DNA of 64,000 nucleotides, taken from positions 343,216,644 through 343,280,643 of the forward strand of contig NC_061514.1 in NCBI RefSeq assembly GCF_022539505.1, written 5' to 3'. The DNA is from Lolium rigidum. Lineage: Eukaryota > Streptophyta > Magnoliopsida > Poales > Poaceae. The notes beneath the pieces were generated by a model. The model searched no databases. It was not told the origin of the DNA and saw only the letters and a list, made by a program, of their open reading frames with translations. Below are positions 6,072-64,000 of the stretch, one piece after another. Position numbers and translations under genes: made by a program. The first letter of the stretch is position 1; each line of letters opens with the position of its first letter.

Positions 6072-6105
<34 letters not shown>

Positions 6106-6984: not shown

Positions 6985-7219
6985 GAGATGAGAGGGAAAT
7001 TTCTAGGGTTCATTTTGGGATAAATACACACAACTTAAACTTGATTCATAAAATACTAATAATATTACACATACAAACATAGTCATGGAGGTAGCAACTA
7101 TTACAAGCCAAAGTTCAGGAGGGTTTTAAGAACCCTTTCAACAACTACGATACATGGGGCGGATACAAAGGACCGATACATATCATACTACGCAAGTGCT
7201 CATAAGGGGGGGATGGAAG

Positions 7220-36879: not shown

Positions 36880-38812
36880 GTGGTGGTTGTTGTCTGGATG
36901 ATGGTGGCATTGCTGGCCTGTTCGTGGGCATTGAGCGCCCTGTCACGGCTCATGTGGAGGCCCCGGGTCATCACGAGGATGTTCCGCGTGCAGGGCGTGC
37001 ACGTACCAGATTACTCCTGCTCGGAATATCGGCAATATGAAGCGGTTCCTCCTTGGGAGCGCTGGCCTCGTGCTGAACATCGGCTGCCACGACTACAGTG
37101 CCATGGTGCAACCCTGGTCACGGAAATATCGATGGTGACGAGTGGAAGCGCCATGGGAAGGTCGTCCACCCGGTCTTCAACATCGACAAACTAAAGGTAT
37201 ATACAGTAGGTAACTCTTTGAAAAGCTAAGATTTGTGAGGTACTTCTCGACTTCTGTTGACACTTCTTGCATGTGTGAGGAGGCTCTGCTCGGCAGATGT
37301 TGGCTGTGACCGTGTCCGAATTGGTTCGATGATGTACGAGTGGGAATTGAAGTTGAAGAAAGCCGCCGGCAACGTGGAGATTGAGATGAGTAGCCAGTTT
37401 GATGAGCTTGTGGCTGGCGTGATCTCGCGCGCGGTATTCCGGGGTGATCACAGAGCGGCCAATGGAATCCATATAGCACAGGAGCTCCAGTTTCTCGTCT
37501 TCTCGAGTATATTCAAGTTTTTGAGCCATATCCCGGGATTCAGGTATATAGGTCGCAACTCTTTGAACAGCTAAAGGTATATAGGTCGCAACGCTTTGAA
37601 CGACTGGAAGCGCCATAGGAAAGACGTCCACCCGGCCTTCAATGTGGACAAACTAAAGGTATATAGGTCGCAACTCTTTGAACAGCTAAGATTTGTGATG
37701 TACTTCTCGACTTTTGTTGACACTTGTTGCATGTGTGATGAGGTTCTGCTTGGCAGATGTTGGCTGTGACCGTGTCCAATTGTGTTGGTTTGATGGTGTT
37801 CCAGTGGGAAGTAAAGTTGAAGAAGGCCGTCAGCAATGTGGAGATTGAAATGAGTATTCAGTTTGATGAGCTCGCGGCTGACGTGATCTCGCACGTGGCA
37901 TTCGGGAGCGACCACAGAGCGGCTAATGGAGTACATTTATCACAGAAGGAGCTCCATTTTGTTGCCTTCTCCAGTATATTCAACGTTTTGTGCCACATCC
38001 CAGGATTCAGGTACATAGCGATAGAACTTGTTAAATTTCTCATTTAGTTGGTTCAAATGAGGACAGAGCAAAACTCAAAATCACTGCGTGTTTGTGAAAT
38101 TAATCAGGTACCTTCCAACAAGAGGTAACCTGAAAATGCGGAAGCTCCAGAAAGATGTACAGGACATATCCACCAACATTGCCAAAAATAGGGTGGCCAC
38201 CAAGGACACCGCAGGCTGCAGGAACGACATGCTCAGGGAGGGGTTCACAGCCAAGAACGGGCAGAACCCGCTCATGAGCATGGACGAGATCATTGAGGAG
38301 TCCAAGACCTTCTACTTAGCTGGGCACGAGACCTCTCAGTTTCTCATCTGGACAATGTTCCTATTGAGGACATACCCAGAGTGGCAAGAGAAGCTCAGAG
38401 AGGAGGTGCTAAGAGATTGCGGCAAGGAAACTCCTGTCGACGACATGCTCAACAAGCTGAAGTTGGTCAACATGTTCATCCTTGAAACTCTCAGGCTGTA
38501 CAGCCCCATCGCGCAAATCCAGAAGAGAGCGAGCTCGGCTGCATCAAGGTGTCCGAATGCGCGATCCTGTCGTTTTCCATCAAGACGATACACCGTGACA
38601 AGGATGTCTGGGGCGAGGATGCCGACGAGTTCAAGCCTGAGACGTTTGAGAATGGGGTGATGATGGCCACAAAGCAGCCCAATGCGTTTCTGCCCTTCCC
38701 CAGCGGACCGATGGCGTGTCGGGCAAAACTTTGCCATGATTGAGGCGAAGATCGTGTTTGCGATGATCCTGCAGAGGTTCTCAATGTCTCTGTCTCACGG
38801 TGCGTCCTAGGC
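36880..38812 (+). pseudogene. Broken cytochrome P450 (CYP72 clan, CYP709-like)
   Basis: Remnant of a membrane-bound monooxygenase. Visible parts: a hydrophobic N-terminal anchor and hinge (VALLACSWALSALSRLMWRP, near 36905-36965); a W-x-R-H motif (EWKRHGKVVHPVFNIDKLK) ending at a splice donor near 37195; an exon with FDELVAGVISRAVF (37299-37540), present twice (again near 37759-38012); then an exon from about 38108 with the I-helix AGHETS, the K-helix ETLRLY, and the PERF-like FKPETFE. The heme-binding loop (FPSGPMACR) is frameshifted just after the Cys at 38718. The segment between anchor and W-x-R-H motif is largely lost. Frameshifts also occur near 37110 and 38530. Assignment to CYP709 is from overall resemblance. 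Confidence 0.85.
37139..38020 (+). repeat. 462-bp tandem duplication inside the P450 pseudogene
   Basis: The block exon end + intron + next exon starting at 37140 (GAGTGGAAGCGCCATGGG) recurs from 37602 (GACTGGAAGCGCCATAGG). The second exon copy is the better preserved. The junction at 37544-37606 contains two extra copies of a ~31 bp motif (AGGTATATAGGTCGCAAC) also found at 37657, looking like filler DNA. Confidence 0.85.
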
Positions 38813-43141: not shown

Positions 43142-43563
43142 TATCGTTCTAGAAAGTGTAGGACATACAACACTAAGTAAGCCGCATTCACACGTAATTT
43201 TTTTGACACAAGGCATTCACACGTGGTTTGTCTCAGCGAGATCTGTACGTTTTAGGACGGAGATCGAATGCTACTCGCGTGGGACTCGTGACTCTCAAGT
43301 CCAAACAGAGATTCTGGATACAAACACGTATACTTGGAAGTACTCCGTACGAAAAAGCGAGGAACCTGATTACTGTTTTCCTTTTCTCCATGGTGTTGGC
43401 CATCCTTTTTACGAGTACTTTTCCGCCTCTCCGACATGATGGCATCCAACCAAACATCTCAACTGAAGCAACGACCCCGACACGCCATGCATACTTTGCT
43501 ATGCATGCTTCAACCGTCAACACGCCCCATAATGTACTCTCCCGCCCACACGCACCGGCGCAC

Positions 43564-43572
43564 GCATAAATA
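43564..43572 (+). promoter_or_regulatory. TATA box of the dirigent gene
   Basis: CATAAATAC lies about 90 bp upstream of the ATG, a usual distance for a grass core promoter with a short leader. The leader between it and the ATG is C-rich and contains AGCTAGCTAGCT. CATGCATAC and TGCATGC (RY-type motifs) occur at about 43483-43507. Confidence 0.6.
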
Positions 43573-43654
43573 CGCGAGCGCGCCCTCAGCACCTCACACG
43601 GAGTCACAAACCCACCGCAGCAGCGAGCAGCACCAGCTAGCTAGCTCGCCAGCA

Positions 43655-44188
43655 ATGGCCGCCACCGCCGCGCTCATCGCCCTAATCGTCCTCGCCGGCA
43701 CCACCTCCCACTCCGAGGCCGCATCATCGGCTGCAGGCGAGAAAACGACGCACATCAAGCTCTACTGGCACGACGTGGTGAGCGGGCCGAGCCCGACGGT
43801 GGTGCAGGTGGCGCACGCGGCGTCGACCAACGCCTCCAAGACGGGCTTCGGCGGCGTGGTGGTCATCGACGACCCGCTCACCGAAGGGCCGGCGCTCACC
43901 TCCTCCAGGCTCCTCGGGCGCGCGCAGGGCACCTACATCAGCGCCGGCAAGGACGACGTGTCGCTGTTCATGAGCATGAACTTCGTCTTCACCGCCGGCA
44001 GGTACAACGGCAGCACCGTCGCCATCATGGGCCGCAACGCCGTCTTCAGCGCCGTGCGGGAGATGGCCGTCGTCGGCGGCACGGGGGTCTTCAGGTGGGC
44101 GCGAGGGTACGCGCAAGCCAGGACGCACACCTTCGACTTGAAGACCGGCGACGCCACCGTCGAGTATAACGTATTCATCAAACACTAG
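43655..44188 (+). CDS. Dirigent protein
   Basis: A complete single-exon gene of 177 codons. Residues 1-24 (MAATAALIALIVLAGTTSHS) form a secretion signal. The mature part is a full dirigent domain: HIKLYWHDVVSG near the start, GFGGVVVIDDPLTEGP, SRLLGRAQGTYISAGKDD, the core strand MSMNFVFTAGRYNGSTVAI, and VREMAVVGGTGVFRWARGYA towards the end. Dirigent proteins act in the cell wall and steer phenoxy-radical coupling or related steps (lignans, terpenoid-type phenolics); the substrate cannot be told here. NAS and NGS are potential N-glycosylation sites. An in-frame ATG at 43436 would add 73 residues before the signal and lies upstream of the TATA box, so the 43655 start is preferred. Confidence 0.95.
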   Translation: MAATAALIALIVLAGTTSHSEAASSAAGEKTTHIKLYWHDVVSGPSPTVVQVAHAASTNASKTGFGGVVVIDDPLTEGPALTSSRLLGRAQGTYISAGKDDVSLFMSMNFVFTAGRYNGSTVAIMGRNAVFSAVREMAVVGGTGVFRWARGYAQARTHTFDLKTGDATVEYNVFIKH

Positions 44189-46027: not shown

Positions 46028-47167
46028 CTGGCGTGAAACCGAGGCGACGGCAATTGATCAGCCATAAATAGAGATCGACGCGCGTGAAACCGAGGCGACG
46101 ACATTAACTCGTCGCGTGGAAGCTACGCGGTCGGCGAAGACTGACCGGCGGCATGCTTTTACAGCGCGCGGAAGACGATGTGATGAGAACGACGATTGGC
46201 CTCTCTCGCCGACAAGTTGGGGCCACCAGCCGCACGGTAAGTTTTCTCGGCGTTTCCCGCGCTTTCGTTTCGTCCGGAGTCCCCGAGCGCTCCCCGGGGG
46301 ACCGGGGATGGCCTGTGGTCCCGGGATGGATGAAAGCCCAAATCCAAATGAAAATGAGGTTCTGGGAACGCGATTGAACCGTTTTCATCCATCCAGATGA
46401 AAAAAACGTCCTAGAGATCTCGTCGGAAAAGACGGCTGGAGATACTCTTACCATCAGTGTGGATCAGCGGCTCCATGGCGGAGCAGGCCGACTCTCGCGC
46501 GCTGGCTTCAACTCTATAGGAGAGGACGGTAGAGTCCGGAACTGAACCCAACTATAGACGAAACAATACCAAACACGACATATAAAATTGGTCGCAGGAC
46601 TTAAGACGGTTGCCAGCGCGAGTTTTTATTTTTTTGGTTTTCCTACTGGTTTTTCTTATTCTTATACCGAGAGCGGGAGCAGCTAAGGGACGATGGGTTT
46701 TTGTTTTCCATCTAACGGAGAGGGACTTCGGTTTTCTTTGACTTACCATCCGAGTTTTTAATGTACGGACGCTATGCTGGTTTGGTTTTTCTGACATACC
46801 AAACATAGATTGGTTTTATTTAACCAAAGAGACAAAACAAGGCAAGGTAGGTTTTAACGAACTAGACTTGGAACGGGAGGAAGGTTTTTTTTACGTACTA
46901 AACTTTAGTTCGGTTTTTTTGATGGATGAAAATTTGTTCTGATTTTTTTGACCTACCAACACCACCAATCCGTAACTTATTAGTAGAAAACTAGCGATTT
47001 CAAAAAAGGAGCTTGCAAATCCGTTCAAATAAATCGCGTGACACAATCAAATCGAACATATGAATAGACATACCCACACATGATCTTAGGATGATGCATA
47101 AGTTTAGGAGAGAATTTTGCCATCGTACGTATATACCGTTGCTTCCCGAAGAGATAAACAGTTATGT
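46028..47167. other. Intergenic repetitive DNA
   Basis: 46040-46095 has a direct repeat of GCGTGAAACCGAGGCGACG. 46429-46448 (GGCTGGAGATACTCTTA) looks like the right end of a DNA element of the GAGCATCTCC type. 46550-46990 is a T-rich stretch with multiple GGTTTT repeats. The final part (46966-47123) recurs at the right window edge. Confidence 0.5.
46966..47123. repeat. Left copy of a segment repeated at 63855-64000
   Basis: AATAAATCGCGTGAC, CAATCAAATC, CACACATGATCTTAGGATG and GAGAATTTTGCC are shared in the same order and spacing with 63901-64000. The match starts weakly near 46966 and becomes strong from 47006. Confidence 0.85.
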
Positions 47168-47846: not shown

Positions 47847-48321
47847 GGTGATGCGGTGGCATGCGGTGTTGCGGGTGGGAGTGGAGGTCGGTGGTGTGGG
47901 CGATGACAGGGATGATGCCGGTCTCCTTTTAAAGGCTGGGCGCACGCGGGACATGACACCATTGATGGCGGCGTAGAAGTTCAACCGCCGCCTGCCTCGC
48001 GTGCAGAAGAGGAAGCAGCGCTATTGATGGTGAAGGCTACGGCGCAGACGCTGAAGCGACAGCCACGGAAGTGATGCGTTTGAAACAGGCCTCTAGGTCG
48101 TTGACAGGCGGGCCCGTGAAAAAAGTTAGCGGTCACGCGACGGGACCGCGCAGCGTCCGCGAGACGCATCCGAGGCGCAAATATGTGACGCGTTTGCGTT
48201 TTCGCGAACGCCAATCACTATGTGTCGAGCCGTTAGACCTGGGTAGAGGCGCATTTTTGACCATGCGGGCTCCGCGCTCATTTCCGTCGTTCCGTTAGAG
48301 ATGCTCTAAGACTTACTCATA

Positions 48322-49420
48322 AGCTTGCAAGAAAAAGGGCTTATAATCCCGGTTGATAAAGGCTTATAATCCAGCGGATGCGACCAACCATTCGAGACTA
48401 AAGGCCCCCCCTTAGTCTCGGTTGTAAAAACAAAACGTGAATAAAGAGCCCGCCACATGGACTGCTGGCGCGCGTCGAGAAAATAACGACTAAAGGCTAT
48501 TTCGTTAAATTTTTTTAATCTATTTTTGATTTTCTAATTATGTTTTTCTCCCTCTTGTTTTCCTATTTTCTTTCTTCAGAATTTCTAGTATTTCAGTTAT
48601 TTGACTAATTTAGTTTTTAACTACACTTAATCTCTAACTATGCTTAATCTCTAGTTAAATTACTTACCCGCGGTCAAACTTCTCACTCGGTCACCCATCC
48701 TCCCGCTGCTCCAACACTAGCAAGCTTAACTTCCAAGTTCCTTCCCGTCCTGCTTCCAAAGGCTTCACGCGCATGTAGTTGATAGTAGTATCGTATCAAT
48801 CCAATTAACATGTTGGTCGATGTCACATTTTTTTATTATTTGAATTCCAAATAATTCTTTTAATAAACAAAACTAATGATATAATAAATCTTATAATTTT
48901 AAATATTAACTTATTTATTTTGAATTTTTTAATAATTTTCTAATTAAGTTTTTAATAAAAAAATTAACAAACCTGAAAATTTAAAAATCTTAAAATTGGC
49001 TAACTTTATGGTTAAGTAATAGTAATCTTTATGTAGGATGCAATTATGTAATTAAATTTTTTAAAAAATAATACTAAATTTCTGGGAAAAACTAAAATCT
49101 TCCTGCTTTCAAATCTAAAAAATAGCTAACCGGGTAAACCTTTAGTCCCGGTTGGTAAAGCGAACCGGGACTAAAGGGTAGACCTTTAGTCCCGGTTGGT
49201 AATACGAACCGGGACTAAAGGTTTTGCCCCGGAGGTAGCCTGCCACCACCCTTTTAGTCCCGGATCGTAGTACCAACCGGACTAAAGGTTCCAAATGAAC
49301 CAGGACAAAAGGCTTTCGAGAATGAACCAGGACCAATACCCTCCGTTAGTTCCAGTTTGTTTTTAAACCGAGACTATAACTCCTTGGGGTGCTGGACCAA
49401 AAGCCTGTTTTCTACTAGTG
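48322..49420. mobile_element. Short CACTA-type element without ORF, left of the array
   Basis: The right end is CACTAGTAGAAAACAGGC on the minus strand (ending at 49420); the left end near 48324 (CTTGCAAGAAAAAGGGC) looks like a decayed partner. Subterminal repeats of TTTAGTCCCGGTT / AACCGGGACTAAA occur at 49141-49300 and 48390-48425. The interior (48480-49110) is AT-rich and non-coding. At 49115-49140 it shares AGCTAACCGGGTAAACC with the array units but then lacks the spacer and ORF found there. Confidence 0.65.
49141..49222. repeat. Palindromic subterminal repeats of the CACTA terminus (example)
   Basis: TTTAGTCCCGGTT and AACCGGGACTAAA form two successive hairpin-capable pairs with 9-11 base loops; a third, larger one surrounds position 49255. 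Most array units keep this set (for example 50627-50708, 56562-56641, 59459-59540), whereas 60915-60945 and 62330-62345 have lost part or all of it. CACTA subterminal repeats are normally transposase-binding sites. Confidence 0.8.
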
Positions 49421-49646
49421 TCAGTTTAGCAGACACGCACGTAGTTTAAAAAATTGCGTTGACCATTATTTTGGTTAATAAAATATGAAACATATTCAAA
49501 AAATTATATCATTGGAAAGATTTTTTGCATACGAATCTAATGATATAGATTTTGTAGACTTAAAGTTTATATTTTATTGAACAAATTGATGGTCAAAGAT
49601 TATCTTAAACTGCGTGCGTGCCTATTAAATCTAGATGGAGGAAGTA
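49421..49646. mobile_element. Truncated MITE inside the array unit (first copy as example)
   Basis: The arms GTTTAACAGACACGCACGTAG (left; here with one change) and, inverted, GTTTAATAGGCACGCACGCAG (right) continue inward for about 60 bp each. The right end is complete (CTAGATGGAGGAAGTA, Stowaway-like), but the left end lacks the matching outer ~14 bp because the CACTA terminus starts there. The same truncation is seen in every unit of the array. Confidence 0.75.
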
Positions 49647-49954
49647 TGAAAAACGATCAAAGTAATAATTGCATAATATCGTGCAAAGTATAAAAAAGGC
49701 CATGAATTAATATGGACGGAAACACACAAAAACATGAATTACGACTTTGACCAAATTGACCTGAACAAGATTAGACCTCGACAAATTTGAACATAGTGGA
49801 ACATTCGACACTGCAACAGGAACACTCAGTTTTGGCATTTGCTCACAAATAATGACATGCCGTCACATACAACAAATTTGGGCTTGCACGCACTATATAC
49901 TATTGAAAGACATGACGACACACCAAAATATTACGACAACTTTTTTCTCTGAAG

Positions 49955-50275
49955 TCATAGCAAGAAAGACAACAAGGCCTGATCACTAAAGAAGGAGTAC
50001 ACTTCTTGCCACATCGGCAGTTCTCCCAGGTCCAGCAAGCTCACCGGCTCGGCGGCGGAGTGGTACTCAAGGTCCGACGATATTAGGTAGTCATCGTCAA
50101 GGATCCGCGGCGCAGCGGATGAGAGACCAAGGAACATGCAGTCTTCGTCCTCCGGCGGTACAATCACATCGGCAGTGCAGAATGGAAAGAACACGCCGCT
50201 GCCATCGCAGCACGTCTCCTCCTGGAGCAATCTGTCGGGCGAAAGATTCATAATCGAACTCAGGGTATCAGCCAT
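49955..50275 (-). CDS. Array ORF copy 1, intact (106 residues)
   Basis: Starts MADTLSSIMNLSPDRLLQEE and ends SDQALLSFLL with TGA. Acidic, rich in Leu, Asp, Glu and Ser; contains a Cys pair in EETCCDG and the segment ILDDDYLISSDLEYHSAAEP. No signal peptide, membrane segment or known motif is seen. The family is not recognised; the composition is reminiscent of an acidic regulatory region, but that is a guess. A second ATG (in CAATGGCGGTAAGC) lies 21 bp upstream in another frame. It reads away from the CACTA terminus that ends at 50910. Could be a captured fragment of a host gene. Confidence 0.6.
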   Translation of the reverse strand: MADTLSSIMNLSPDRLLQEETCCDGSGVFFPFCTADVIVPPEDEDCMFLGLSSAAPRILDDDYLISSDLEYHSAAEPVSLLDLGELPMWQEVYSFFSDQALLSFLL

Positions 50276-51446
50276 CTCATCGGGCTTACCGTCATTGAGA
50301 ATCTAAAAATTAGCTAATCGGGTAAACCTTGGTGAATTCGGATGTAACTTTTTCCCACGATCATTTTGATATATTATACGTTTTTTCCGATGTCGTATGC
50401 AAAAGGTAATGCCGTTTTACCTTTTTCAAAGTTTTTTTTTCAAAAAAGTCGAAATTCAAATTTGTTGATTTTCCTAATAGTAGGTTGTGTAGCATACAAG
50501 AATCTCAAAATATTTATTTTTTGATTTATTTTTATTATTTTCTTTTATATTGTACAGTGCTAAAAAAGGCGATCCACATGGGGTGGAGCCGTGGAGGTGC
50601 GTGGGGAGCCAAAAAACCAGAAAATCCTTTAGTCCCGGTTGGTAAAGCGAACTGGGACTAAAGGGTAGACCTTTAGTCCCGGTTGGTAATACGAACCGGG
50701 ACTAAAGGTTGTTGCCCCGGAGGCAGCCTGCCACTACCCTTTTAGTCCCAGGATCGTAGTACCTACCGGGACTAAAGGTTCCAAACGAACCGGGACAAAA
50801 GACTTTCGGGAATGAACCGGGACCAATACCCTCCATTAGTTTCAGTTTGTTTTTAAACCGGGACTATAGCTCCCAGGGGTGTTGGACCAAATGCATGTTT
50901 TCTACTAGTGTCGGTTTAACAGACACGCACGTAGTTTAAAAAATTGCGTTAACCATTATTTTGGTTAATAAAATATGAAACATATGTCAAAAAAATTATA
51001 TCATTGGAAAGATTTTTTGCATACGGATCTAATGATATAGATTTTGTAGACATAAAATTTATATTTTGTTGACCAAATTGATGATCAAAGTTTATCTTAA
51101 ACATCATGCGTGCCTATTAAACCTAGATGGAGGAAGTATGAAAAACGATCAAAGTAATAAATACATAATATCGTGCAAAGTATAAAAAAGGCCATGAATT
51201 AATATGGAAGGAAATACACAAAAACATGAATTACGACTTTGACCAAATTGGCCTGAACAAGATTAGACCTCGATAAATTCGAACATAGTGGAACATTCGA
51301 CACGGCCACAGGAACACTCACTTTTGGCGTTTGCTCACAAATAACCACATGGCGTCACATACAGCAAATTTGGGCTTGCACTCACTATATACTATTGAAA
51401 GACATGACGACACCCGAAAATATTTCGACAAAAAATTGCTCTGAAG

Positions 51447-51767
51447 TCATAGCAAGGGAGACAACAAGACCTGATCACTGGAGAAGGAGTCCACTTCTTG
51501 CCACATCGGCGGTTTTCCCAGGTCCAGCAAGCTCACCAGCTCGGCGGCGGAGTGGCACTCAAGGTCCGACGATATTAGATAGTCATCGTCAAGGATTCGC
51601 GGCGCAGCGAATGAGAAACCAAGGAACATGCAGTCTCCATCCTCCGGCGGTACAATCACATCGGCAGTGTAGAATGGAGAGAACACGCTGCTGCCATCGC
51701 AGCACGTCTCCTCTTGGAGCAATCTGTCGGACGAAAGATTCATAATCGAACTCAGGGGATCAGCCAT
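51447..51767 (-). CDS. Array ORF copy 2, intact (106 residues)
   Basis: Starts MADPLSSIMNLSSDRLLQEE, full length, ends SDQVLLSPLL. Compared with copy 1 it differs at well over ten residues (for example FYTADV for FCTADV, EDGDC for EDEDC, LECHS for LEYHS, GKPPMW for GELPMW). No frame damage. Confidence 0.6.
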   Translation of the reverse strand: MADPLSSIMNLSSDRLLQEETCCDGSSVFSPFYTADVIVPPEDGDCMFLGFSFAAPRILDDDYLISSDLECHSAAELVSLLDLGKPPMWQEVDSFSSDQVLLSPLL

Positions 51768-52870
51768 CTCATCGGGGTTACCACCATTGAGAATCTAAAA
51801 ATTAGTTAACCGGGTAAACGCTGGTGAATTCGGAAATAACTTTTTCCCACAATCATTTTGATATAGTATACGTTTTTTACGACGTCGTATGCAAAAGTTA
51901 ATGCCGTCTTACCTTTTTCTAAGCTTTTTTTGTAAAACAAGTCGAAATTTAAATTTGTTAATTTTTCCTAATAGTAGGTTGTGTAGCATACAAGAACCTC
52001 AAAAGATTTTATTTTTGAATTTTTTATCATTTTCTTTTATATTGTACAGTGCTAAAAAAAGGCGATCAGGGGGGTGGAGGTGAGTGGGATCCAAAAAACC
52101 GGAAAATCCTTTAGTCCTAGTTGGTAAAGAGAACCGGGACTAAAGGGTAGACCTAACACCACCCTTTTAGTCCCGGATCGTAGTACCAACCGGGACTAAA
52201 GGTTCCAAACGAACCGGGACAAAAGGCTTTCGAGAATGAACCGGGACCAATACCCTCCATTATTTTCGGTTTTTTTAAAAACCGGGACTATAGCTCCCAG
52301 GGGTGCTGGACCAAAGGCCTGTTTTCTACTAGTGTCGGTTTAACAGACACACACGTAGTTTAAAAAATTACGTTGACCATTATTTTGGTTAATAAAAATA
52401 TGAAACATATTTCAAAAAAATTATATCATTGGAAAGATTTTTTCCATACGAATCTAATGATATAGATTTTTTAGACATAAAATTTATATTTTGTTAACCA
52501 AATTGATGGTCAAAGTTTATCTTAAACTGCATGCATGCCTATTGAACCTAGATGTAGGAAGTATGAAAAATGATCAAAGTAATAATTGCATAATACCATG
52601 CAAAGTATAAAAAAGGCCATGAATTAATATGGAAGGAAACACACAAAAACATGAATTACGACTTTGACCAAATTGGCCTGAACAAGATCAGACCTCGGCA
52701 AATTCGAACATAGTGGAACACTCGACACGGCAACAGGAACATTCACTTTTGGCGTTTGCTCACAAATAATGACATACCGTCACATACAGAAAATTTGGGC
52801 TTGCACGCACTATATACTATTGAAAGACATGACGACACACGAAAATATTACAAAAAATTTTGCTCTGAAG

Positions 52871-53191
52871 TCATAGCAAGGCAGACAACAAGGCCTGATC
52901 ACTGAAGAAGGAGTCCACTTCTTGCCACATCGGCAATTCTCCCAGGTCCAGCAAGCTCACCGGCTAGGCGGCGGAGTGGTACTCAAGGTTCGACGATATT
53001 AGGTAGTCATCGTCAAGGATCCACGACGCAACGAATGAGACACTAGGGAACATGCAGTCTTCGTCCTGCAGCGGTACAGTCACATCGGCAGTGCAGAATG
53101 GAGAGAACACGCTGCTCCCGTCGCAGCACGTCTCCTCTTGGAGAAATGTGTCGGGCGAAAAATTCAAAATCGAACTAAGGGGATTAGCCAT
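52871..53191 (-). pseudogene. Array ORF copy 3, stop at codon 76
   Basis: Starts MANPLSSILNFSPDTFLQEE. The Glu codon after LEYHSAA is TAG, giving a 75-residue product; the frame beyond remains similar to the others. It also differs more than other copies in the middle (PSVSFVASW for PGLSFAAPR). The assembly gap lies about 100 bp upstream of its start. Confidence 0.7.
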
Positions 53192-53288
53192 CTCATCGGG
53201 CTTACCGCCATTGAGAATGTAAAAAAAGCTAACCGGGTAAACCCTGGTGAATTAAGATATAACTTTTTCCTACGATCATTTCGATATA

Positions 53289-53388
53289 NNNNNNNNNNNN
53301 NNNNNNNNNNNNNNNNNNNNNNNNNNNNNNNNNNNNNNNNNNNNNNNNNNNNNNNNNNNNNNNNNNNNNNNNNNNNNNNNNNNNNNNN
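53289..53388. other. Assembly gap (100 Ns) inside the array
   Basis: Exactly 100 Ns in the spacer of unit three. The sequence on both sides aligns to the spacer of other units with only a few bases missing, so the true gap in this unit may be tiny or may hide whole collapsed units. Confidence 0.95.
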
Positions 53389-54430
53389 ACGTCGTATACA
53401 AAAGTTAATGTTGTTTTACCTTTTTCTAAGTTTTTTTTGCAAAACAAGTCGAAATTTAAATTTGTTAATTTTTCCTAATAGTAGGTTGTGTAGCATTCAA
53501 GAATCTCAAAAGATTTTATTTTTGAATTTTTTATCATTTATTTTTATATTGTACAGAGCTAAAAAAAGGACGATCCACGGGGGGTGGAGGTGAGTGGGAA
53601 GCCAAAAAACCGGAAAATCCTTTAGTCCCGGTTGGTAAAGTGAACTGGGACTAAAGGGTAGACCTTTAGTCCTGCTTGGTAATACAAACCGGGACTAAAG
53701 GTTTTTGCCCCGGAGGCAGCCTAACAGCACCCTTTAAGTCCCGGATCGTAGTACCAACCGGGACTAAAGGCTCCAAACGAACCGGGACAAAAGGCTTTCG
53801 AGAAGGAACAAGGACCAATACCCTCCATTAGTTCCGGTTCGTTTGGACTATAGCTGCCAGGGGTGCTGGACCAAAGGCATGTTTTCTACTAGTGTCGGTT
53901 TAACAGACACACACGTAGTGTAAAAAATTGCATTAAACATTATTTTGGTTAATAAAATATGAAACATATTTCAAAAAAATTATATCATTGGAAAGATTTT
54001 TTGCATACGAATCTAATGATATAGATTTTTTAGATATAAAATTTATATTTTGTTGACCAAATTGATGGTCCAAGTTTATCTTAAACTGCGTGCGTGCCTA
54101 TTAAACCTAGATGGAGGAAGTATGAAAAACGATCAAGGTAATAACTGCATAATATCGTGCAAAGTATAAAAAAGGCCATGAATTAATATGGAAGGAAACA
54201 CACAAAAACATGAATTACGACTTTGACCAAATTGGCCTGAACAAGATCAGACCTTAGCAAATTCAAACATAGTGGAACATTCGACACGGCAACAGGAACA
54301 CTCACTTTTGGCGTTTGCTCACAAATAATGAAATATTGTCACATACAACAAATGTTGGTTTGCACGCACTATATACTATTGAAAGACATGACGACACACG
54401 CAAATATTACGACAAAAAATTGCTCTGAAG

Positions 54431-54751
54431 TCATAGCAAGGCAGACAACAAGGCCTGATCACTGAAGAAGGAGTCCACTTATTGCCACGTCGGCAGTTAT
54501 CCCAGGTCCAGCAAGCTCACCAGCTCGGCGGTGGAGTGGTACTCAAGATCCGATGATATTAGGTAATCATCGTCAAGGATACGTGGCGTAGCGAATGAGA
54601 GACCAGGGAACATGCAGTCTTCGCCCTCCGGCGGTACAATCACATCGGCAGTGCAGAATGGAGAGAACACGCCGCTGCCATCGCATCACGTCTCCTCTTG
54701 GAGCAATCTGTCGGGCGAAAGATTCATAATCGAACTCAGGGGATCAGCCAT
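54431..54751 (-). pseudogene. Array ORF copy 4, early stop at codon 22
   Basis: The ATG is kept (MADPLSSIMNLSPDR), but the first Cys codon of EETCCDG is TGA. Later TAA codons occur in the GELPMWQE region, including one directly after TGGCAA that is shared with copies 7 and 8. Total length stays 321 bp. Confidence 0.75.
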
Positions 54752-55907
54752 CTCATCGGGCTTACCGCCATTGAGAATCTAAAAATTAGCTAACCGGGTA
54801 AACCCTGGTGAATTCGGATGTAACTTTTTCCAACGATAATTTTGATATATTATACGTTTTTTTCCCGACGTCGTATGCAAAAGTTAATGCTGTTTTACCT
54901 TTTTCTAAGCTTTTTTTGCAAAAAAAGTCGAAATTCAAATTTGTTAATTTTTCCTACTAGTAGGTTGTGTAGCATACAAGAATCTCAAAATATTTTTTTT
55001 TGAATTTTTTTATCATTTTCTTTTATATTGTACATTGCTAAAAAAGGCGATCCATGGGAGTTTAGGTGCGTGGGGAGCCAAAAAACCGGGAAATCCTTTA
55101 GTCCCGGGTTGTAAAGCGAACCGGGACTAAAGGGTAGACCTTTAATCCCGGTTGCTAATACGAATCGGGACTAAAGGTTTTTTCCCCGGAGGCAGCCTGC
55201 CCCACCCTTTTAGTCCCGGATTGTAGTACCAACCGGTACTAAAGGTTCCAAACGAACCGGGACAAAAGGATTTCGAGAATGAACTGGGACCAATACCCTA
55301 GTTCCGGTTCAGTCTTAAACAGGGACTATAGCTCCCAGGGGTGCTGGACCAAAGGCGTGTTTTCTACTAGTGTCGGTTTAATAGACACGCACGTAGTTTG
55401 AAAAATTGCGCTGACCATTATTTTGGTTAATAAAATATGAAACATATGTCAAAAAGAAATATCATTGGAAAGATTTTTTGCATACGAATATAATGATATA
55501 GATTTTATAGATATAAAATTTATATTTTGTTGACCAAATTGATGGTCAAAGTTCATCTTAAACTGCGTGCGTGCCTATTAAACCTAGATGGAGGAAGTAT
55601 GAAAAACGATCAAAGTAATAATTGCATAATATCGTGCAAAGTATAAAAAAGGCTGTGAATTAATATGGAAGGAAACACATAAAAACATGAATTACGACTT
55701 TGACCAAATTGGCCTGAACAAGATCAGACCTTAGCAAATTCAAACATAGTGGAACATTCGACACGGCAACAGGAACACTCACTTTTTGCGTTTGCTCACA
55801 AATAATGACATGCCGGCACATACACCAAATTTGGGCTTGCACACACTATATACTATTGAAAGACATGACGACACACGCAAATATTACGACAAAAAATTGC
55901 TCTGAAG

Positions 55908-56217
55908 TCATAGCAAGGCAGACAACAAGGCCTGATCACTGAAGAAGGAGTCCACTTATTTGCCACGTCGGCAGTTCATCCCGAGTCCAGCAAAGCTCAC
56001 CGGCTCGGCGGTGGAGTGGTGCTCAAGATCCGATGATATTAGGTAATCATCGTCAAGGATCACGTGGCGCAGCAAATGAGAGACCATGGAACATGCAGCT
56101 CTTCCGGCGGTACAATCACATCGGTGCGGAATGGAGAGAACACGCCGTTGCCATCGCAACGTCTCCTCTTGAGCAGTCGGGCGAAAGATTCATAATCGAA
56201 CTCAGGGGATCAGCCAT
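55908..56217 (-). pseudogene. Array ORF copy 5, frameshifted
   Basis: Only 310 bp instead of 321. Small deletions occur around the EETCCDG segment and in the PPEDEDC segment, and there are extra bases in the GELPMWQ and LLDLG segments. The ATG is kept. It shares the TGGCAA(A)TAAGTGG variant with copies 4, 7 and 8. Confidence 0.75.
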
Positions 56218-57377
56218 CTCATCGGGCTTACCGCCATTGAGAATCTAAAAATCAGCTAACCGGGTAAACCCTGGTGAATTCGGATGTAACTTTTTCCCAC
56301 GATCATTTTGATATAGTATACGTTTTTTCCGACGTCGTTTGCAAAAGTTAATGCCGTTTTACCTTTTCTAAGCTTTTTTTGTAAAAAAAGTCGAAATTCA
56401 AATTTGTTAATTTTTCCTACTAGTAGGTTGTGTAGCATACAAGAATCTCAAAATATTTTTTTTTTTGAATTTTTGTATCATTTTCTTTTATATTGTACAT
56501 TGCTAAAAAAGGCTATCCATGGGAGTTGGAGGTGCGCGAGGAGCCAAAAAACCGGAAAATCCTTTAGTCCCGGTTGGTAAAGCGAACCGGGACTAAAGGG
56601 TAGACCTTTAATCCCGGTTGCTAATACGAATCGGGACTAAAGGTTTTTTCCCCGGAGGCAGCCTGCCCCACCCTTTTAGTCCCGGATTGTAGTACCAACC
56701 GGTACTAAAGGTTCCAAACGAACCGAGACAAAAGGCTTTCGAGAATGAACTGGGACCAATACCCTCCATTAGTTCCGGTTCGTTTTTAAACCGGGACTAT
56801 AGCTCCCAGTGGTGCTGGACCAAAGGACTGTTTTCTGCTAGTGTCGGTTTAACAGACACACACGTAGTTTAAAAAAATTGCGTTGACCATTATTTTGGTT
56901 AATAAAATATGAAACATATGTCAAAAATTATATCATTAGAAAGATTATTTGCATACGAATCTAATGATATAGATTTTATAGACATAAAATTTATATTTTG
57001 TTGACCAAATTGATGGTCAAAGTTCATCTTAAACTGCGTGCGTGCCTATTAAACCTAGATGGAGGAATTATGAAAAATATCAAAGTAATAATTTCATAAT
57101 ATCGTGCAAAGTATAAAAAAGGCTAAGAATTAATATGGAAGGAAACACATAAAAACATGAATTACGACGTTGACCAAATTGGCCTAAACAAGATCAGACC
57201 TCGGCAAATTTGAACATAGTGGAACATTCTACACGGCAACAGGAACACTCAGTTTTGGCGTTTGCTCACAAATAAGGATATGCCGTCACATACATCAAAT
57301 TTGGGCTTGCACGCACTATATACTAATGAAAGACATGACGACACACGAAAATATTACGACAAAAATTTGCTCTGAAG

Positions 57378-57635
57378 TCATAGCAAGGCAGACAACAAGG
57401 CCTAATCACTGAAGAAGGAGTCCGCTTCTAGCCACATCGGCAGTTCTCCCAGGTCCAGCAAAGCTCACCGGCTCGGCGGTGGAGTGGTGCTCAAGGTCCG
57501 ACGATATTAGGTAGTCATCGTCAAGGATCCGCGGCGCAGCAAATGAGAGACCATGGAACATGCAGTCTTCCAGGTCTCCTCTTGGAGCAATCTGTCGGGT
57601 GAAAGATTCATAATCGAACTCAGGGGATCAGCCAT
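57378..57635 (-). pseudogene. Array ORF copy 6, internal deletion
   Basis: About 63 bp shorter: the stretch from the Cys pair to the PPEDED segment is missing, and there is one extra base in the LLDLG region (CCAGCAAAGCTC on the plus strand). Start and stop positions are otherwise recognisable. Confidence 0.75.
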
Positions 57636-58789
57636 CTCATCGGGCTTACTGCCATTGAGAATCTAAAAATTAGCTAGCCGGGTAAACCCTGGTGAATTCG
57701 GATGTAACTTTTTCCCACGATCATTTTGATATATTATACATTTTTCCCGACATCGTATGCAAAAGTTAATGCCGTTTTACCTTTTTCTAAGCTTTTTTAC
57801 AAAAAAAAGTCGAAATTCAAATTTGTTAATTTTTCCTAATAGTAGGTTGTGTACCATACAACAATCTCAACAGATTTTATTTTTTGAATTTTGTATCATT
57901 TTCTTTTATATTGTACAGTGCTAAAAAAGGCTATCAACGGGGGGGTGGAGGTGCGCAAGGAGCCAAAAAACCGGAAAATCCTTTAGTCCCGGTTGGTAAA
58001 GCGAACCGGGACTAAAGGGTAGACCTTTAGTCCCGGTTGTTAATACGAACCGGGACTATAGGTTTTTGCCCCGGAGGCAGCCTACCACCACCCTTTTAGT
58101 CCTGGATTGTACTACCAATAGGCACTAAAGGTTCCAAACGAACCGGGACAAAAGGCTTTCGAGAATGAACCAGGACCAACACCCTCCATTAGTTCCGGTT
58201 TATTTTTAAACCGGGACTAGAGCTCCCAGGGTGCTGGACCAAAGGCCTGCTTTCTACTAGTGCCGGTTTAACAGACATGCACATAGTTTAAAAAATTGCG
58301 TTGACCATTATTTTGGTTAATAAAATATGAAACATACGTCAAAAAAATTATATGATTGAAAAGATTTTTTGCATACGAATCTAATGATATAGATTTTGTA
58401 GACATAAAATTTATATTTTGTTGACCAAATTGATGGTCAAACTTTATCCTAAACTGCGTGCGTGTCTATTAAACCTAGATGGAGGAAGTATGAAAAAGAT
58501 CAAATTAATAATTGCACAGTATCGTGCAAAGTATAAAAAAGGCCATGAATTAATATGGAAGGAAACACACAAAAACATGAATTATGACTTTGACCAAATT
58601 GGCCTGAACAAGATCAGACCTCGGCAAATTCAAACATATATAGTGGAACATTCGACACGGCAACAGGAACACTCACTTTTGGCGTTTGCTCACAAATAAT
58701 GACATGCCGTCACATACAGCAAATTTGGGCTTGCACGTACTATATACTATTGAAAGACATGACGACACATGAAAAAAATTGCTCTGAAG

Positions 58790-59110
58790 TCATAGCAAGG
58801 CAGACAACAAGGCATGATCACTGAATAAGGAGTCCACTTATTGCCACATCGACAGTTCTCCCAGGTCCAGCAAGCTCACCGGCTCGGCGGTGGAGTGGTA
58901 CTCAAGGTCTGACGATATCAGGTAGTCATCGTCAAGGATCCGCGGCGCAGTGAATGAGAGACCAGGGAATATGCAGTCTTCGTCCTCTGGCGGTACAATC
59001 ACATCGGAAGTGCAGAATGGAGAGAACACGCTGCTACCATCGCAGCACGTCTCCTCTTGGAGCAATATGTCGGGCGAAAGATTCATAATCGAACTCAGGG
59101 GATCAGCCTT
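58790..59110 (-). pseudogene. Array ORF copy 7, start codon lost and late stop
   Basis: The ATG position reads AAG (plus strand CTT in place of CAT), so only an internal Met (MNLSPDILLQEE, 59086) is available. The codon after MWQ is TAA, removing the last 15 residues. The middle is well preserved (CDGSSVFSPFCTSDVIVPPE). Confidence 0.75.
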
Positions 59111-60265
59111 CTCATCGGGCTTACCGCCATTGAGAATCTAAAAATTAGCTAACCGGGTAAACCCTGGTGATTTCGGATGTAACTTTTTCTCGCGATCATT
59201 TTGATATATTATGCGTTTTTTTCCGACATCGTATGTAAAAGTTAATGCCGTTTTCACTTTTTCTAAGCTTTTTTTACAAAAAAAATTCGAAATTCAAATA
59301 AGTTAATTTTTCCTTATTGTAGGTTGTGTAGCATACAAGAATCTCAATAGATTTTATTTTTTGAATTTTGTATCATCTTCTTTTATATTGTGCAATGCTA
59401 AAAAAAAGGCGATCCACGGGGGGTGGAGGTGCGTGGGGAGCCAAAAAACCGGAAAATCCTTTAGTCCCGGTTGGTAAAGCGAACCGGGACTAAAGGGTAG
59501 ACCTTTAGTCCTGGTTGCTAATACGAACCGGGACTAAAGGTTTTTTCCCTGGAGGCAGCCTGCCACCTCCCTTTTAGTCCTGGATCGTAGTACCAACAGG
59601 GACTAAAGGTTCAAACGAAGCGGCACAAAAGGCTTTCGAGAATGAACCGGGACCAATACCCTCCATTAATTCCTTTTAAACCTGGACTATAGCTCCCAGG
59701 GGTGCTGGACCAAAGGCCTGTTTTCTACTAGTGTCGGTTTAACAGACACGCACGTAGTTTAAAAAATTACGTTGACCATTATTTTGGTTAGTAAAATATG
59801 AAACATACGTCAAAAAAAATCGTTGGAAATACTTTTTGCATACGAATCTAATGATATAGATTTTGTAGACATAAAATTTATATTTTGTTGACCAAATTGA
59901 TGGTCAAAGTTTTTCTTAAACTGCGTGTGTGCCTATTAAACCTAGATGGAGGAAGTATGAAAAATGATCAAATTAATAATTGCATAGTATCGTGCAAAGT
60001 ATAAAAAAGGCCGTGAATTTATATGGAAAGAAACACACAAAAACATGAATTACGACTTTGACAAAATTGGCCTGAACAAGATCAGACCTCGGCAAATTCG
60101 AACACAGTGGAACATTCGACACGGCAACAGGAACACTCACTTTTCGCGTTTGCTCACAAATAATGACATGTCGTCACATACCAAAAATTTGGGCTTGCAC
60201 GCACTATATACTATTGAAAGACATGACAACACACGAAAATATTGCGACAAAAATTTGCTCTGAAG

Positions 60266-60586
60266 TCATAGAAAGGCAGACAACAAGGCCTGATCACTGA
60301 AGAAGTAGACCACTTATTGCCACATCGGCAGTTCTCCCAGGTCTAGCAAGCTCACTGGCTCGACAGCGGAGTGGTACTCAAGGTCCGACGATATTAGGTA
60401 GTCATCGTCAAGGATCCGTGGCGCAGCGAATGAGAAACCAGGGAACATGCAGTCTTCGTCCTCCGGCGGTACAATCACATCGGTAGTGCAGAATGGAGAG
60501 AACACGCCGCTGCCATCGCAGCATGTCTCCTCTTGGAGCAATCTGTCGGGCGAAAGATTCATAATCGAACTCAAGGGATCAACCAT
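60266..60586 (-). pseudogene. Array ORF copy 8, late stop at codon 91
   Basis: Starts MVDPLSSIMNLSPDRLLQEE and reads 90 residues to MWQ, then TAA as in copies 4 and 7. If the last 16 residues are not needed this could count as a shorter intact version. Confidence 0.65.
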
Positions 60587-61677
60587 CTCATCGGGCTTAC
60601 CGCTATTGAGAATCTAAAAATTACTAACCGGGTAAACCCTGGTGAATTCGGATGTAACTTTTTCCCACGATCATTTTGATATATTATACGGGTTTTTTTC
60701 GACATCGTATGCAAAAGTTAATGCCGTTTTACCTTTTTGTAAGCTTTTTTTGCAATAAAAAGAGTCAAAATTCAAATTTGTTAATTTTTCCTAATACTAG
60801 GTTGTGTAGCATACAGGAATCTCAAAAGATTTTATTTCTTGAATTTTTTTATCATTTTATTTTATATTGTACAACGCTAAAAAAGGCGATCCACGGGGGG
60901 GGTGTGGAGGTGTTTGGGTAGACCTTTAACCGGGACTAAAGGTTTTTGCCCCGGAGGCAGCCTGCCACCACCCTTTTAGTCCCGGATCGTAGTACCAACC
61001 GGGACAAAAGGTTCCAAACGAACCAGGACAAAAGGCTTTCGAGAATGAACCGGGACCAATACCCTCCATTAGTTTCGGTTCGTTTTAAACCGGGACTATA
61101 GCTCCCAGGGGTGCTGGACCAAAGGCCTGTTTTCTACTAGTGTCGGTTTAATAGACCCGCACGAAGTTTAAAAAATTGCGTCGACCATTATTTTGGTTAA
61201 TAAAATATGAAACATATGTCAAAAAGTTATATCATTGGAAAGATTTTTTTCATACGAATCTAATGATATAGATTTTGTAGACATTAAATTTATATTTCGT
61301 TGACCAAATTGAAGGTCAAAGTTTATCTTAAACTGCGTGCGTACCTATTAAACCTAGATGGAGGAAGTATGAAAAACGATCAAAGTAATAATTGCATAAT
61401 ATCGAGCAAAGTATAAAAAAGGCCATGAATTAATATGGAAGGAAACACACAAAAACATGAGTTACGACTTTAACCAAATTGGCCTGAACAAGATCAGACC
61501 TCGACATATTCGAACATAGTGGAACATTCGACACGGCAACATGAACACTCACTTTTGGTGTTTTCTCACAAATAATGACATGCCATCACATACATAAAAT
61601 TTGGGCTTGCCCGCAATATATCTTATTGAAAGACATGACGACACACGAAAATATTACGACAAAAATTTGCTCTGAAG

Positions 61678-61998
61678 TCATAGCAAGGTAGACAACAAGG
61701 CCTGATCACTGAAGAAGGAGTCCACTTCTTGCCACATCGGCAGTTCTCCCAGGTCCAGCAAGCTCACCGGCTCGGCGGCGGAGTGGTACTCAAGGTCTGA
61801 CGATATTAGGTAGTCATCATCAAGGATCCGCGGCGCAGCGAATGAGAGACCAGGGAACATGCATTTTTCATCCTTCGGCGGTACAATCACATCGGCAGTG
61901 CAGAATGGAGTGAACACGTTGCTGCCATCGCAGCACGTCTCCTCTTGGAGAAATCTGTCGGGCGAAAGATACATAATAGAACTTAGGGGATCAGCCAT
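61678..61998 (-). CDS. Array ORF copy 9, intact (106 residues)
   Basis: Starts MADPLSSIMYLSPDRFLQEE, ends SDQALLSTLL. By eye about 23 nucleotides and 11 residues differ from copy 1 over 321 bp (roughly 7%). It lies at the opposite end of the array from copies 1 and 2, the other undamaged ones. The CACTA terminus above it is the one ending at 62472 that lacks most palindromes. Confidence 0.6.
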   Translation of the reverse strand: MADPLSSIMYLSPDRFLQEETCCDGSNVFTPFCTADVIVPPKDEKCMFPGLSFAAPRILDDDYLISSDLEYHSAAEPVSLLDLGELPMWQEVDSFFSDQALLSTLL

Positions 61999-62904
61999 CT
62001 CATTGGGCTTACCGCCATTGAGAATCTAAAAATTAGCTAACCGGGTAAACCCTGGTGAATTCGGATGTAACTTTTTCCCGCGATCATTTTGATATATTAT
62101 ACGTTTTTCCAACGTCGTATGCAAAAGTTAATGCCGTCTTACCTTTTTCTAAGCTTTTTTTGCAAAAAAAAGTCGAAATTCAAATTTGTTAATTTTTCCT
62201 AATAGTAGGTTGTGTAGCATACAAGAATCTCAAAATATTTTATTTTTTGAATTTTTTATCATTTTCTTTTATATTGTACAGTGCTAAAAAAGGCGGTCCA
62301 CGGGGGTGGAGGTGCGTGGGGAGCCAAAAAACCAGAAAAGGTTCCAAACGAACCGGGACAAAAGGCTTTCGAGAGTGAACCGGGACCAATACCCTCCATT
62401 AGTTCCGGTTCGTTTTTAAATTGGACTATAGCTCCCATGGGTGCTGGACCAATGGCCTATTTTCTAGTAGTGTCGGTTTAACAGACACACATGCAGTTTA
62501 AAAAATTGTGTTGACCATTATTTTGGTTAATAAAATATGAAACATATGTCAAAAAAATTATATCATCGGAAAGATTTTTTGCATACGAATCTAATGAAAT
62601 AGACTTTGTTGACATAAAATTTATATTTTGTTGACCAAATTGATGGTCAAAGTTTATCTTAAATTGCGTGCGTTCCTATTAAACCTAGAGGGAGGAAGTA
62701 TGAAAAATGATCAAAGTAATAATTTTATAATATCGTGCAAAGTATAAAAAAGGCCATGAATTAATATGGAAGGAAACACACAAAAACATGAATTACGACT
62801 TTGACCAAATTGGCCTGAACAAGATCAGACCTCGACAAATTCGAACATAGTGAAACATTCGACACGGCAACATGAACACTCACTTTTGGCGTTTTCTCAC
62901 AAAT

Positions 62905-63854
62905 AAATGCTTGATCCGACGTCGTTTGAGGAACGCTTTGGGGGACGCGGCTTCACCTCTCTGGTTATTACATTCCAGGACAGATGGTCCATGACATTCA
63001 TGTTGATTTTGGAGGAAAGGGATCTTATGGATGTGTTGTTAGGAGTGATGATGATCATGGAAGGTGTTTGCGTAGAAGGGGAGACTACCAAGAACTTGCG
63101 TAGCTTGCATTAAGAAATTGGAACGTGGATTGTCAAAGAATTGTCTACAAATGCTTTTATGATAGTTTTCTCAAGAAAAAGATGATGCGAGGCAGAGAGG
63201 GTTAATCCGATTCAAGAAAGGGTTTAGCATACCAAATTTTCCAAGTTTGCTAAAATTAGAGTAATGCAAAAAAATATCACCTTTACACATGAGCAGTTTC
63301 CTTCCGGCTCTGGTACGGTTCAACCGAAGCTTTCACCGGTCTGGTGGTCTAGAACTAACCCACTTCCACTGTCGGTCGGTACAGTGTCGGACACGAGCTA
63401 GCATGTTGTGGGTGCGGGCGTGCGGCGCAAGGAAGGGAAGATGGGATGCGGGGCGATGACTGGTGGGGTGCGTGGAAGCGGTGGTAGTCGTCGTGTGGGG
63501 AAAAGATAGGATTGCTAGGTGGGATTTTTTTGTTAGAGATATTTAGATATGATACGTGGGATCTAGGTCACCTAAGCAAATTACTCATATTTATGCAACC
63601 TCAGGACTAACAAATGGGACCCGCTTCATGTCAGTTTTAATCAACCCGCTTTTAGTGTTAAAAAAACTAAGAAAACATCTTAGATTTTGTGTCCCAAAAA
63701 CGTAAACTGGTATGTATATGTCCCTAATTTGACTAGTAAACTGGTGGTTCTACGCTAATACTCCATTTAAATTCATATATAAACCACAGACTAAAAAATT
63801 GCAATAAAGTTACATGATTCCATGAGTGGAAGTAAATTTGGGTACAACTTTAGG
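62905..63854. other. Unique DNA right of the array
   Basis: The array breaks off in the tail of unit ten at about 62904. The plus-strand 68-codon ORF at 62907-63113 (MLDPTSFEERFGGRGFTSLV) may be a fragment of a longer gene: in another frame the segment near 63000 reads VDFGGKGSYGCVV, so a frameshift is possible, but I do not recognise the family. The rest shows no gene. Confidence 0.45.
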
Positions 63855-64000
63855 TGCTAGCTATTTACTAGTAATATCAGAAAGAAAAAAAGAACTTGCA
63901 CATCAGTTCGAATAAATCGCGTGACCCAATCAAATCATATAAATAGGCATATACACACATGATCTTAGGATGATGCATAAGGTTGCAAGAGAATTTTGCC
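63855..64000. repeat. Right copy of the segment at 46966-47123
   Basis: Shares AATAAATCGCGTGAC, CACACATGATCTTAGGATG and GAGAATTTTGCC with the left copy. In the left copy this sequence lies just downstream (3') of the minus-strand pseudogene at 47168-47846, so a second copy of that gene may start just beyond the window. Confidence 0.85.

Follow-up and report, generated by a model that had tools for sequence, protein, structure and literature searches.

How a transposon terminus, a small open reading frame (ORF) and part of a second transposon come to be multiplied together as a single repeating unit is the question raised by an array in the grass Lolium rigidum, found in a stretch of 64,000 nucleotides that was analysed as a whole (the window). 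The array is probably a tandemly amplified gene-fragment (pseudogene) array, which arose via local duplication between a gene and an adjacent CACTA-like element. It is real and tidy, and ordinary duplication is its most likely maker.

Self-BLAST and alignment of the units bear out the nine full units and partial tenth, all in the same orientation, of a preliminary description, as well as the order of parts given there, on the minus strand: CACTA terminus with subterminal repeats, AT-rich spacer, ORF, tail and MITE (Table 1). That description placed the array at 49421..62904; the first CACTA end (49128-49420) is to be included and the array ends at 62906. The unit period is 1.33-1.49 kb (1.56 with the assembly gap), successive spacings being 1490, 1424, 1560 (including 100 N), 1478, 1471, 1419, 1471, 1409 and 1330, and the full units are 90.6-94.6% identical. 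Self-BLAST of the window gave 73 matches, with 46 long ones (>150 bases) inside the array, all plus/plus; none of the 73 connects the array with the remainder of the window. The CACTA end, CACTAGTAGAAAAC, occurs 10 times in 49128-62906 at no more than 2 mismatches, always on the minus strand, and was not found in the right flank (62907-64000, the window end); at 3 mismatches two more matches appear in the array, at 54949 and 56412, both in the spacer. The leftmost CACTA terminus agrees with the consensus at 269 of 281 bases (95.7%), a level similar to that of the units. Searches of the window for Rfam families (at gathering thresholds) and for tRNAs returned no matches.

Table 1. Features of the array and its left edge (window coordinates)
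Feature	Position	Strand	Remarks
Presumed interior of CACTA-like element	48321..49127	-	Continuous with first CACTA end; left limit approximate; possible degenerate far end ~48342-48446
Duplication junction, native side	49112..49140	-	GGTTTACCCGGTTAGCTATTTTTTAGATT, then native sequence in place of gene fragment; 28/29 bases match unit
First (leftmost) CACTA terminus with subterminal repeats	49128..49420	-	Lacks ~290-base spacer of units; from alignment
Unit 1	49421..50910	-	MITE 49421 to ~49647, tail, ORF 49955-50302 intact, spacer, CACTA end
Unit 2	50911..52334	-	ORF 51447-51794 intact; subterminal repeats with 56-base deletion
Unit 3	52335..53894	-	ORF remnant 52871-53218 (limits derived from ORF and tblastn results), late stop; 100-N gap 53289-53388 inside
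Unit 4	53895..55372	-	ORF remnant 54431-54778, three stops
Unit 5	55373..56843	-	ORF remnant 55908-56244, frameshifts
Unit 6	56844..58262	-	ORF remnant 57378-57662, 64-base deletion
Unit 7	58263..59733	-	ORF remnant 58790-59137, late stop
Unit 8	59734..61142	-	ORF remnant 60266-60613, late stop; subterminal-repeat deletions of 60 and 18 bases
Unit 9	61143..62472	-	ORF 61678-62025 intact; subterminal repeats with 150-base deletion
Unit 10, partial	62473..62906	-	MITE and part of tail; array homology ends at 62906

The 106-codon ORF, at first assigned to no known family, corresponds to the C-terminal third of an AP2/ERF transcription factor of the CRF1-like type, with the DNA-binding domain missing; the name "CRF1-like" comes from one source record, P0011 (Triticum dicoccoides). 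The ORF consensus has 11 protein relatives (search cut-off E up to 0.1), which match at E 1.6e-23 or better and all carry an AP2 domain; the best, P0002 of Lolium multiflorum, shares 91% identity across 99% of the fragment's consensus, and protein alignment confirms that the fragment shares homology with the C-terminal region of CRF1-like factors. The closest named relatives are from Lolium and Festuca, not from wheat; the preliminary description had pointed to "wheat-group" assemblies. In tblastn (E up to 1), P0002 (323 aa) matches at residues 208-322 only, starting at residue 208 in all nine full units; residues 1-207 have no match anywhere in the window, and the AP2 domain of P0002 comprises residues 100-149. 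The AP2 DNA-binding domain (PF00847) is absent: P0002-P0012, searched likewise (E up to 1), match the window in their C-terminal parts only. The host gene makes up more than a fifth of the unit.

Initial protein searches gave only P0001, because the search compares proteins of similar length and was restricted to these. No match was obtained for the fragment in PDB, for P0002 and P0011 in NCBIfam, or in viral contigs scanned with the protein and two DNA patterns, and none of 28 pattern matches in bacterial genome contigs accompanied a relative of the protein. Occurrences of the 17-base CACTA end in 7 bacterial contigs, below the ~30 matches expected by chance (a hand estimate for 257 billion bases), were disregarded. 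A Pfam match of the fragment alone to DUF2990, below cut-off (E 0.19; best 0.0085 among three of four members), was set aside as a chance hit, given that the relatives at full length belong to AP2/ERF. An "unknown ORF" without a Pfam match can thus turn out to be the tail of a host transcription factor.

The ORF is decaying neutrally. It is intact in three of the nine full units (1, 2 and 9); a stop costs units 3, 7 and 8 the final 16-31 residues, and units 4-6 have early stops or frameshifts. Its changes number 41 silent, 86 replacement and 8 stop, against 49.7, 106.4 and 6.0 expected, the replacement/silent ratio being 1.01 of neutral, and its substitutions per site (4.4%) lie inside the noncoding range of 3.9-5.3%. 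No present function of the array is expected.

The two transposons of the unit appear to be nested. Stowaway MITEs (Tc1/mariner-type) have a long inverted repeat, a TA flank and a CTCCCTCC-like tip, and the MITE consensus here has TA-CTTCCTCCATCTAGG at one tip and an inverted repeat scoring 90 against a null maximum of 31, the other tip being lost where the MITE is cut at the CACTA terminus. The "truncated MITE" of the preliminary description is thus a nearly complete Stowaway-like element, short of only a dozen or so bases of one tip. A candidate remnant of the lost tip to the left of the CACTA-like element was not significant, 11% of random 35-base windows scoring equally. CACTA (En/Spm) transposons carry CACTA...TAGTG termini on both sides, with direct and inverted subterminal repeats, and are flanked by a 3-base target-site duplication. 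Here the near CACTA end is clear, with CCTTTAGTCCCGGTT repeats, and a far end possibly lies near 48342-48446, judging from sequence similarity. The region 48342-48445 holds four TTTAGTCCCGGTT matches (2-3 mismatches, both strands) against 6 in 1-40000, its TAATCCCGGTTGATAAAG is 89% like the near-end repeat, and the consensus CACTA end matches 48446-48393 with E 8e-4. Aligned end to end, the far end and near end do not rise above shuffles (38 against a maximum of 39 of 300; 38 against 35 of 200), and no CACTA pentamer was seen at the far-end tip. A CACTA-like match at 46978, considered as the far end, was no better than shuffles (25 against 33). The far-end result slightly lowers confidence in the local-duplication explanation.

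The left edge of the array bears directly on how the unit was assembled. The match to the units there has a local score of 53 (maximum 24 in 300 base shuffles) and stops where the gene fragment begins, at its first codon, ATT, and the left flank continues beyond the breakpoint where the units change to gene sequence. Because a tandem-duplication junction can be read at the left edge, no special transposon event is needed behind the chimera; junction and flank continuity together point to local tandem duplication between the gene and the neighbouring CACTA-like element, then rapid amplification.

We infer the following order of events. A Stowaway-like MITE would have come to lie downstream of a CRF1-like AP2/ERF gene, ~300 bases past its stop codon (minus strand), and a short CACTA-like element would then have inserted in the MITE tip, so that the CACTA terminus abuts the MITE. 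A tandem duplication would have fused gene codon ~208 (ATT...) to an internal position of the CACTA-like element (...TTTTTAG), with breakpoint microhomology of at most a few bases as judged from protein, not parent-gene DNA, yielding a ~1.48 kb unit of CACTA end, spacer, 3' part of the gene, tail and MITE. Rapid expansion to at least 10 copies might have proceeded through unequal crossing-over; alternatively, a circle might have been excised, copied in rolling-circle fashion and returned to its original locus. The right-hand end, including the original gene side, would have been lost; array homology ends at 62906, and the window therefore does not show the original locus on its gene side. From then on the units would have accumulated differences almost independently, apart from some subsequent local exchange that mainly involved units 4-6. 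Against the duplication model, the native left copy is without the ~290-base spacer, and an extra deletion is thus required.

Relationships among the units suggest one fast expansion, followed by decay with little homogenisation. The tree is a star, with one of six inner branches supported and end branches of 0.028-0.049 for units 1-9, and private variants number 367 against 96 shared. A grass substitution rate of 1.3e-8 changes per site per year would put the expansion at about 3.3 million years before the present. The density of shared derived variants is three times higher in neighbours (68 over 8 pairs against 79 over 28 others; permutation p 0.00025), reflecting some later local exchange, mainly in units 4-6. 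It holds, as first proposed, that a single fusion was amplified on the spot, with all copies facing the same way, and the pattern does not look like whole elements transposing. Unequal crossing-over, also proposed, fits, as does a fast burst, the evidence fitting unequal crossing-over and circle-based copying alike. Of a "stable local system" there is no sign, because the ORF decays neutrally and the units are little homogenised.

The array might instead descend from a Pack-CACTA element, that is, a transposon that captured a gene fragment inside its ends, with neighbouring insertions or replication errors of the hybrid producing the array. There is precedent: in the available excerpts of PMC13317346 and PMC8978399, CACTA elements capture gene fragments, AP2 ones among them, and close tandem insertions are a proposed intermediate. 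Also in its favour are the unit's precise CACTA terminus and the unclear far end of the left element. This origin is nonetheless unlikely. The left-edge sequence continuous with the near end faces away from MITE, tail and ORF, which apparently places the gene outside that CACTA end; each unit has a single CACTA end, on one strand, with none in the right flank to 64000, whereas a Pack-CACTA element encloses the gene fragment between two CACTA ends.

A genuine satellite, or a multigene locus whose units are preserved through continuing homogenisation or through selection for a small protein (an activation-domain peptide), could account for the three whole ORFs, the three more that are minus only their last 16-31 residues, the local exchange in units 4-6 and the open ORF of P0001, a protein from a metagenome contig of 1536 bases, close to the length of one unit. 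It is highly improbable in view of the neutral replacement/silent ratio, the six broken units of nine, the star tree and an ORF substitution rate inside the range of the other unit parts; where a satellite has many copies and concerted homogenisation, the window has ~10 units, 5-9% apart, in a star tree. That an assembler made or mis-ordered the copies is more improbable still. Arrays of this kind are often mis-sized, and a 100-N gap lies inside unit 3; but the full units are 5-9% apart with indels of their own, which assemblers do not invent, and copy number alone is doubtful. Units 1-9 all carry one or more indels of at least 5 bases; together with the end-branch lengths, this shows that the assembler did not create the array by copying one unit. 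The gap occupies the place of 16 consensus bases and is probably a placeholder; the true unit number may be higher, and the copy number given here is a minimum.

The duplication reading provides an array with readable junctions, in which a gene fragment and nested transposons became ~1.5 kb repeats through ordinary duplication, with gene capture by the transposon probably playing no part. The apparent single fast expansion and the decay with little homogenisation are a useful counter-example to the view that any array containing a transposon is a satellite that evolves in concert. The array may conceivably be, or have been, a small-RNA locus, although this is very unlikely: numerous copies of a CRF activation-domain fragment next to hairpin-forming CACTA ends (fold z-score -8.3, one copy) might give rise to siRNAs that silence the parental CRF1-like gene in trans, and array copy number would then tune a cytokinin-response factor.

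The literature searched, as represented by excerpts, holds earlier cases of tandem units derived from transposons and of CACTA elements that carry gene fragments; no account of this array or of a CRF-fragment array was found there, which does not prove absence from print. Transposon sequence is likewise part of the tandem unit in the transposon-derived satellites D1100 (rye), ENSAT1 (En/Spm-like element) and CficCl-61-40 (CACTA element Jozin), as excerpted from PMC9659126, whereas here there are ~10 copies in the window, homogeneity is low and host gene accounts for over a fifth of the unit. Pack-CACTA elements (Catoni et al. 2019, as given in the excerpt of PMC13317346) similarly combine CACTA terminus and host gene fragment, but here the fragment apparently lies outside the element's end, and a two-ended hybrid element was not seen in the window. 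With the CRF1-like AP2/ERF factors of pooid grasses (P0002, Lolium multiflorum; P0003 and P0004, Festuca; P0011, Triticum dicoccoides) the fragment shares the C-terminal ~115 residues (91% identity, consensus against P0002), but it is without AP2 DNA-binding domain and original start codon, and it is decaying. Plant tandem segmental duplication and pseudogene arrays begin with microhomology-started duplication and are enlarged by unequal crossing-over. The present array resembles them in its head-to-tail units, its junction of two unrelated sequences, a flank continuous with one unit end and later decay, and differs in that its unit carries a nested pair of DNA transposons and that it appears to have expanded in a single burst, with little homogenisation since.

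Ten CACTA-type ends, on the minus strand only, delimit nine full units and a partial tenth in one head-to-tail array, which confirms the copy number and single orientation given in the preliminary description. Self-BLAST gave 73 matches, none of which links the array with sequence elsewhere in the window. Within the array, the 46 that exceed 150 bases share one orientation; the 13 short inverted ones connect palindromic subterminal repeats (12) or fall inside MITE copies (1). A looser search gave weak matches outside the array, the strongest of them (E 8e-4) immediately to its left at 48393-48446. Unit periods are 1330-1490 bases, or 1560 for the unit containing 100 N. The full units (U1 to U9, left to right) are 90.6-94.6% identical to one another and 94.8-96.2% identical to their majority consensus, and because each has at least one indel of at least 5 bases, the array is not one unit copied by the assembler. 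The 100-N gap stands in place of 16 consensus bases. It is probably a placeholder for a stretch of unknown size, which makes ten units a minimum count.

Parts of the array unit (consensus coordinates, read on the minus strand) and features of the window
Feature	Coordinates	Strand	G+C	Remarks
CACTA terminus with TTTAGTCCCGGTT-type subterminal repeats	consensus 1-301	minus
AT-rich spacer	consensus 302-599	minus	0.34
ORF including stop	consensus 600-947	minus	0.56
Tail	consensus 948-1256	minus	0.37
MITE	consensus 1257-1483	minus	0.29
Array	about 49128-62906
Flanking direct repeat	47002-47121, 63885-64000			85% over 120 bases, extending further if gaps are allowed; right copy runs past window end
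Ty3-type retrotransposon, coding region	2429-7002	minus		Pfam RVT_1, RVP_2, integrase parts
Long repeat, three copies	1-2380, 10140-12528, 28614-30319			third vs first 98.9%, first vs second 95.0% identical
Direct repeat, ~620 bases	12529-13147, 19080-19699			94% identical
Partial third copy of the same	25880-26250			about 73-74%
Second 100-N assembly gap	26832-26931
CACTACAAGAAAAG	27191-27204	minus		resembles a common CACTA terminus
PPR-DYW reading frame	33106-35109			667 uninterrupted codons; PPR repeats, E motif, DYW deaminase domain
Two adjacent direct copies, ~420 bases each	37138-38018			84% identical
Dirigent-like protein reading frame	43370-44188			Pfam PF03018, E 2.4e-57

The setting is an ordinary grass gene-and-transposon landscape in which the array is a local curiosity. 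The three long-repeat copies are presumably LTRs of the Ty3-type retrotransposon, and the direct repeat flanking the array could possibly reflect a larger duplication around it, or a dispersed element.

Within the unit, the subterminal repeats form hairpins (z-score -8.3; one copy, DNA folding parameters). The MITE, cut off by the CACTA terminus, forms a long but imperfect inverted repeat that scores 90, compared with at most 31 in 300 shuffles. The ORF had been described as of unknown family. Used alone, it gave no Pfam family above cut-off, no match among solved structures and one relative, the metagenomic protein P0001 (98 residues). The description does not survive the admission of longer proteins, which yields 11 relatives, all with an AP2 domain. 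The best, P0002, from Lolium multiflorum (323 aa), is 91% identical across 99% of the consensus fragment; two Festuca glaucescens proteins follow (83%), then others from Alopecurus, wheat and Avena, and one relative, from Triticum dicoccoides, is named ethylene-responsive transcription factor CRF1-like. Searched back against the window, P0002 matches from residue 208 in all nine full units (in two pieces in U5, across a deletion in U6), and residues 1-207, including the AP2 domain (100-149), match nowhere in the window; therefore the array carries just the C-terminal third of the gene. The closest named relatives of this one gene suggest a host affinity with Lolium/Festuca-group grasses rather than wheat.

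The ORF has taken up replacement, silent and stop changes at the rates at which noncoding parts of the array mutate (ratio 1.01); it is whole in three of nine full units, ends 16-31 residues early in three and is badly broken in three. This neutral ratio and the breakage speak against a peptide that is being maintained; that the array acts at the RNA level is conceivable but improbable. P0001 shares with the consensus a one-residue deletion and six of the seven substitutions separating the consensus from P0002 (local alignment). Of its 98 residues, 10 depart from the consensus, much as in the array units (5 to 14 differences among 75 to 98 compared residues); U4 is nearest (9/95 differ). Given these common changes and the unit-like divergence, P0001 probably represents a further unit or a close sister. 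At 1536 bases, its contig comes close to the length of one unit, which is suggestive only.

The array is real, well bounded and largely explained, and we consider it likely to represent a gene fragment amplified in tandem together with nested transposons. The first CACTA end is 95.7% like the consensus and continues leftward into further sequence which, with the spacer skipped, equals the unit at 28 of 29 bases (score 53 vs a shuffle maximum of 24); the match stops at the ATT codon with which the gene fragment begins. On our reading, a native CACTA-like element would occupy the left edge, with its near end adjoining the MITE, and units would have formed by joining a point inside this element to codon ~208 of the gene. 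Given such joining, the CACTA side rather than a gene intron would have supplied the in-frame TAG, as well as the TTTTTAG that resembles a splice acceptor ahead of the ORF. Since residue 208 of P0002 is isoleucine and the unit has ATT there, the breakpoint probably involved a few bases of microhomology; it is read from the P0002 protein and not from parental gene DNA.

The amplified-fragment reading has weak points, among them that the left copy needs an extra spacer deletion and that the far end of the element is doubtful. Four diverged subterminal-repeat motifs cluster in 48342-48445, vs six such in 1-40000, a doubtful likeness to a far CACTA end; this stretch lacks the CACTA pentamer, and its end-to-end alignment (score 38 vs 39 for shuffles) does not rise above shuffles. 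That alignment result makes the amplified-fragment reading slightly less likely and slightly favours a Pack-CACTA origin, in which a transposon captured the gene fragment inside its ends and the hybrid was then multiplied; we nevertheless hold the latter improbable.

As to the history of the amplified fragment, the tree of the nine units is a star with one of six inner branches supported (U4+U5), and 367 of 463 variants are private. Rapid expansion followed by near-independent decay fits best. Because shared derived variants are three times denser in neighbours (68 over 8 pairs vs 79 over 28; permutation p 0.00025), some later local exchange took place, mainly in U4-U6. Unequal crossing-over and circle-based amplification fit the data alike. 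The mean pairwise distance of 0.0855 corresponds to 3.3 million years at a grass rate of 1.3e-8 changes per site per year. Of the 587 changes, 257 are C-to-T or G-to-A, and CpG sites are the most often altered, a pattern like that of methylated repeats.
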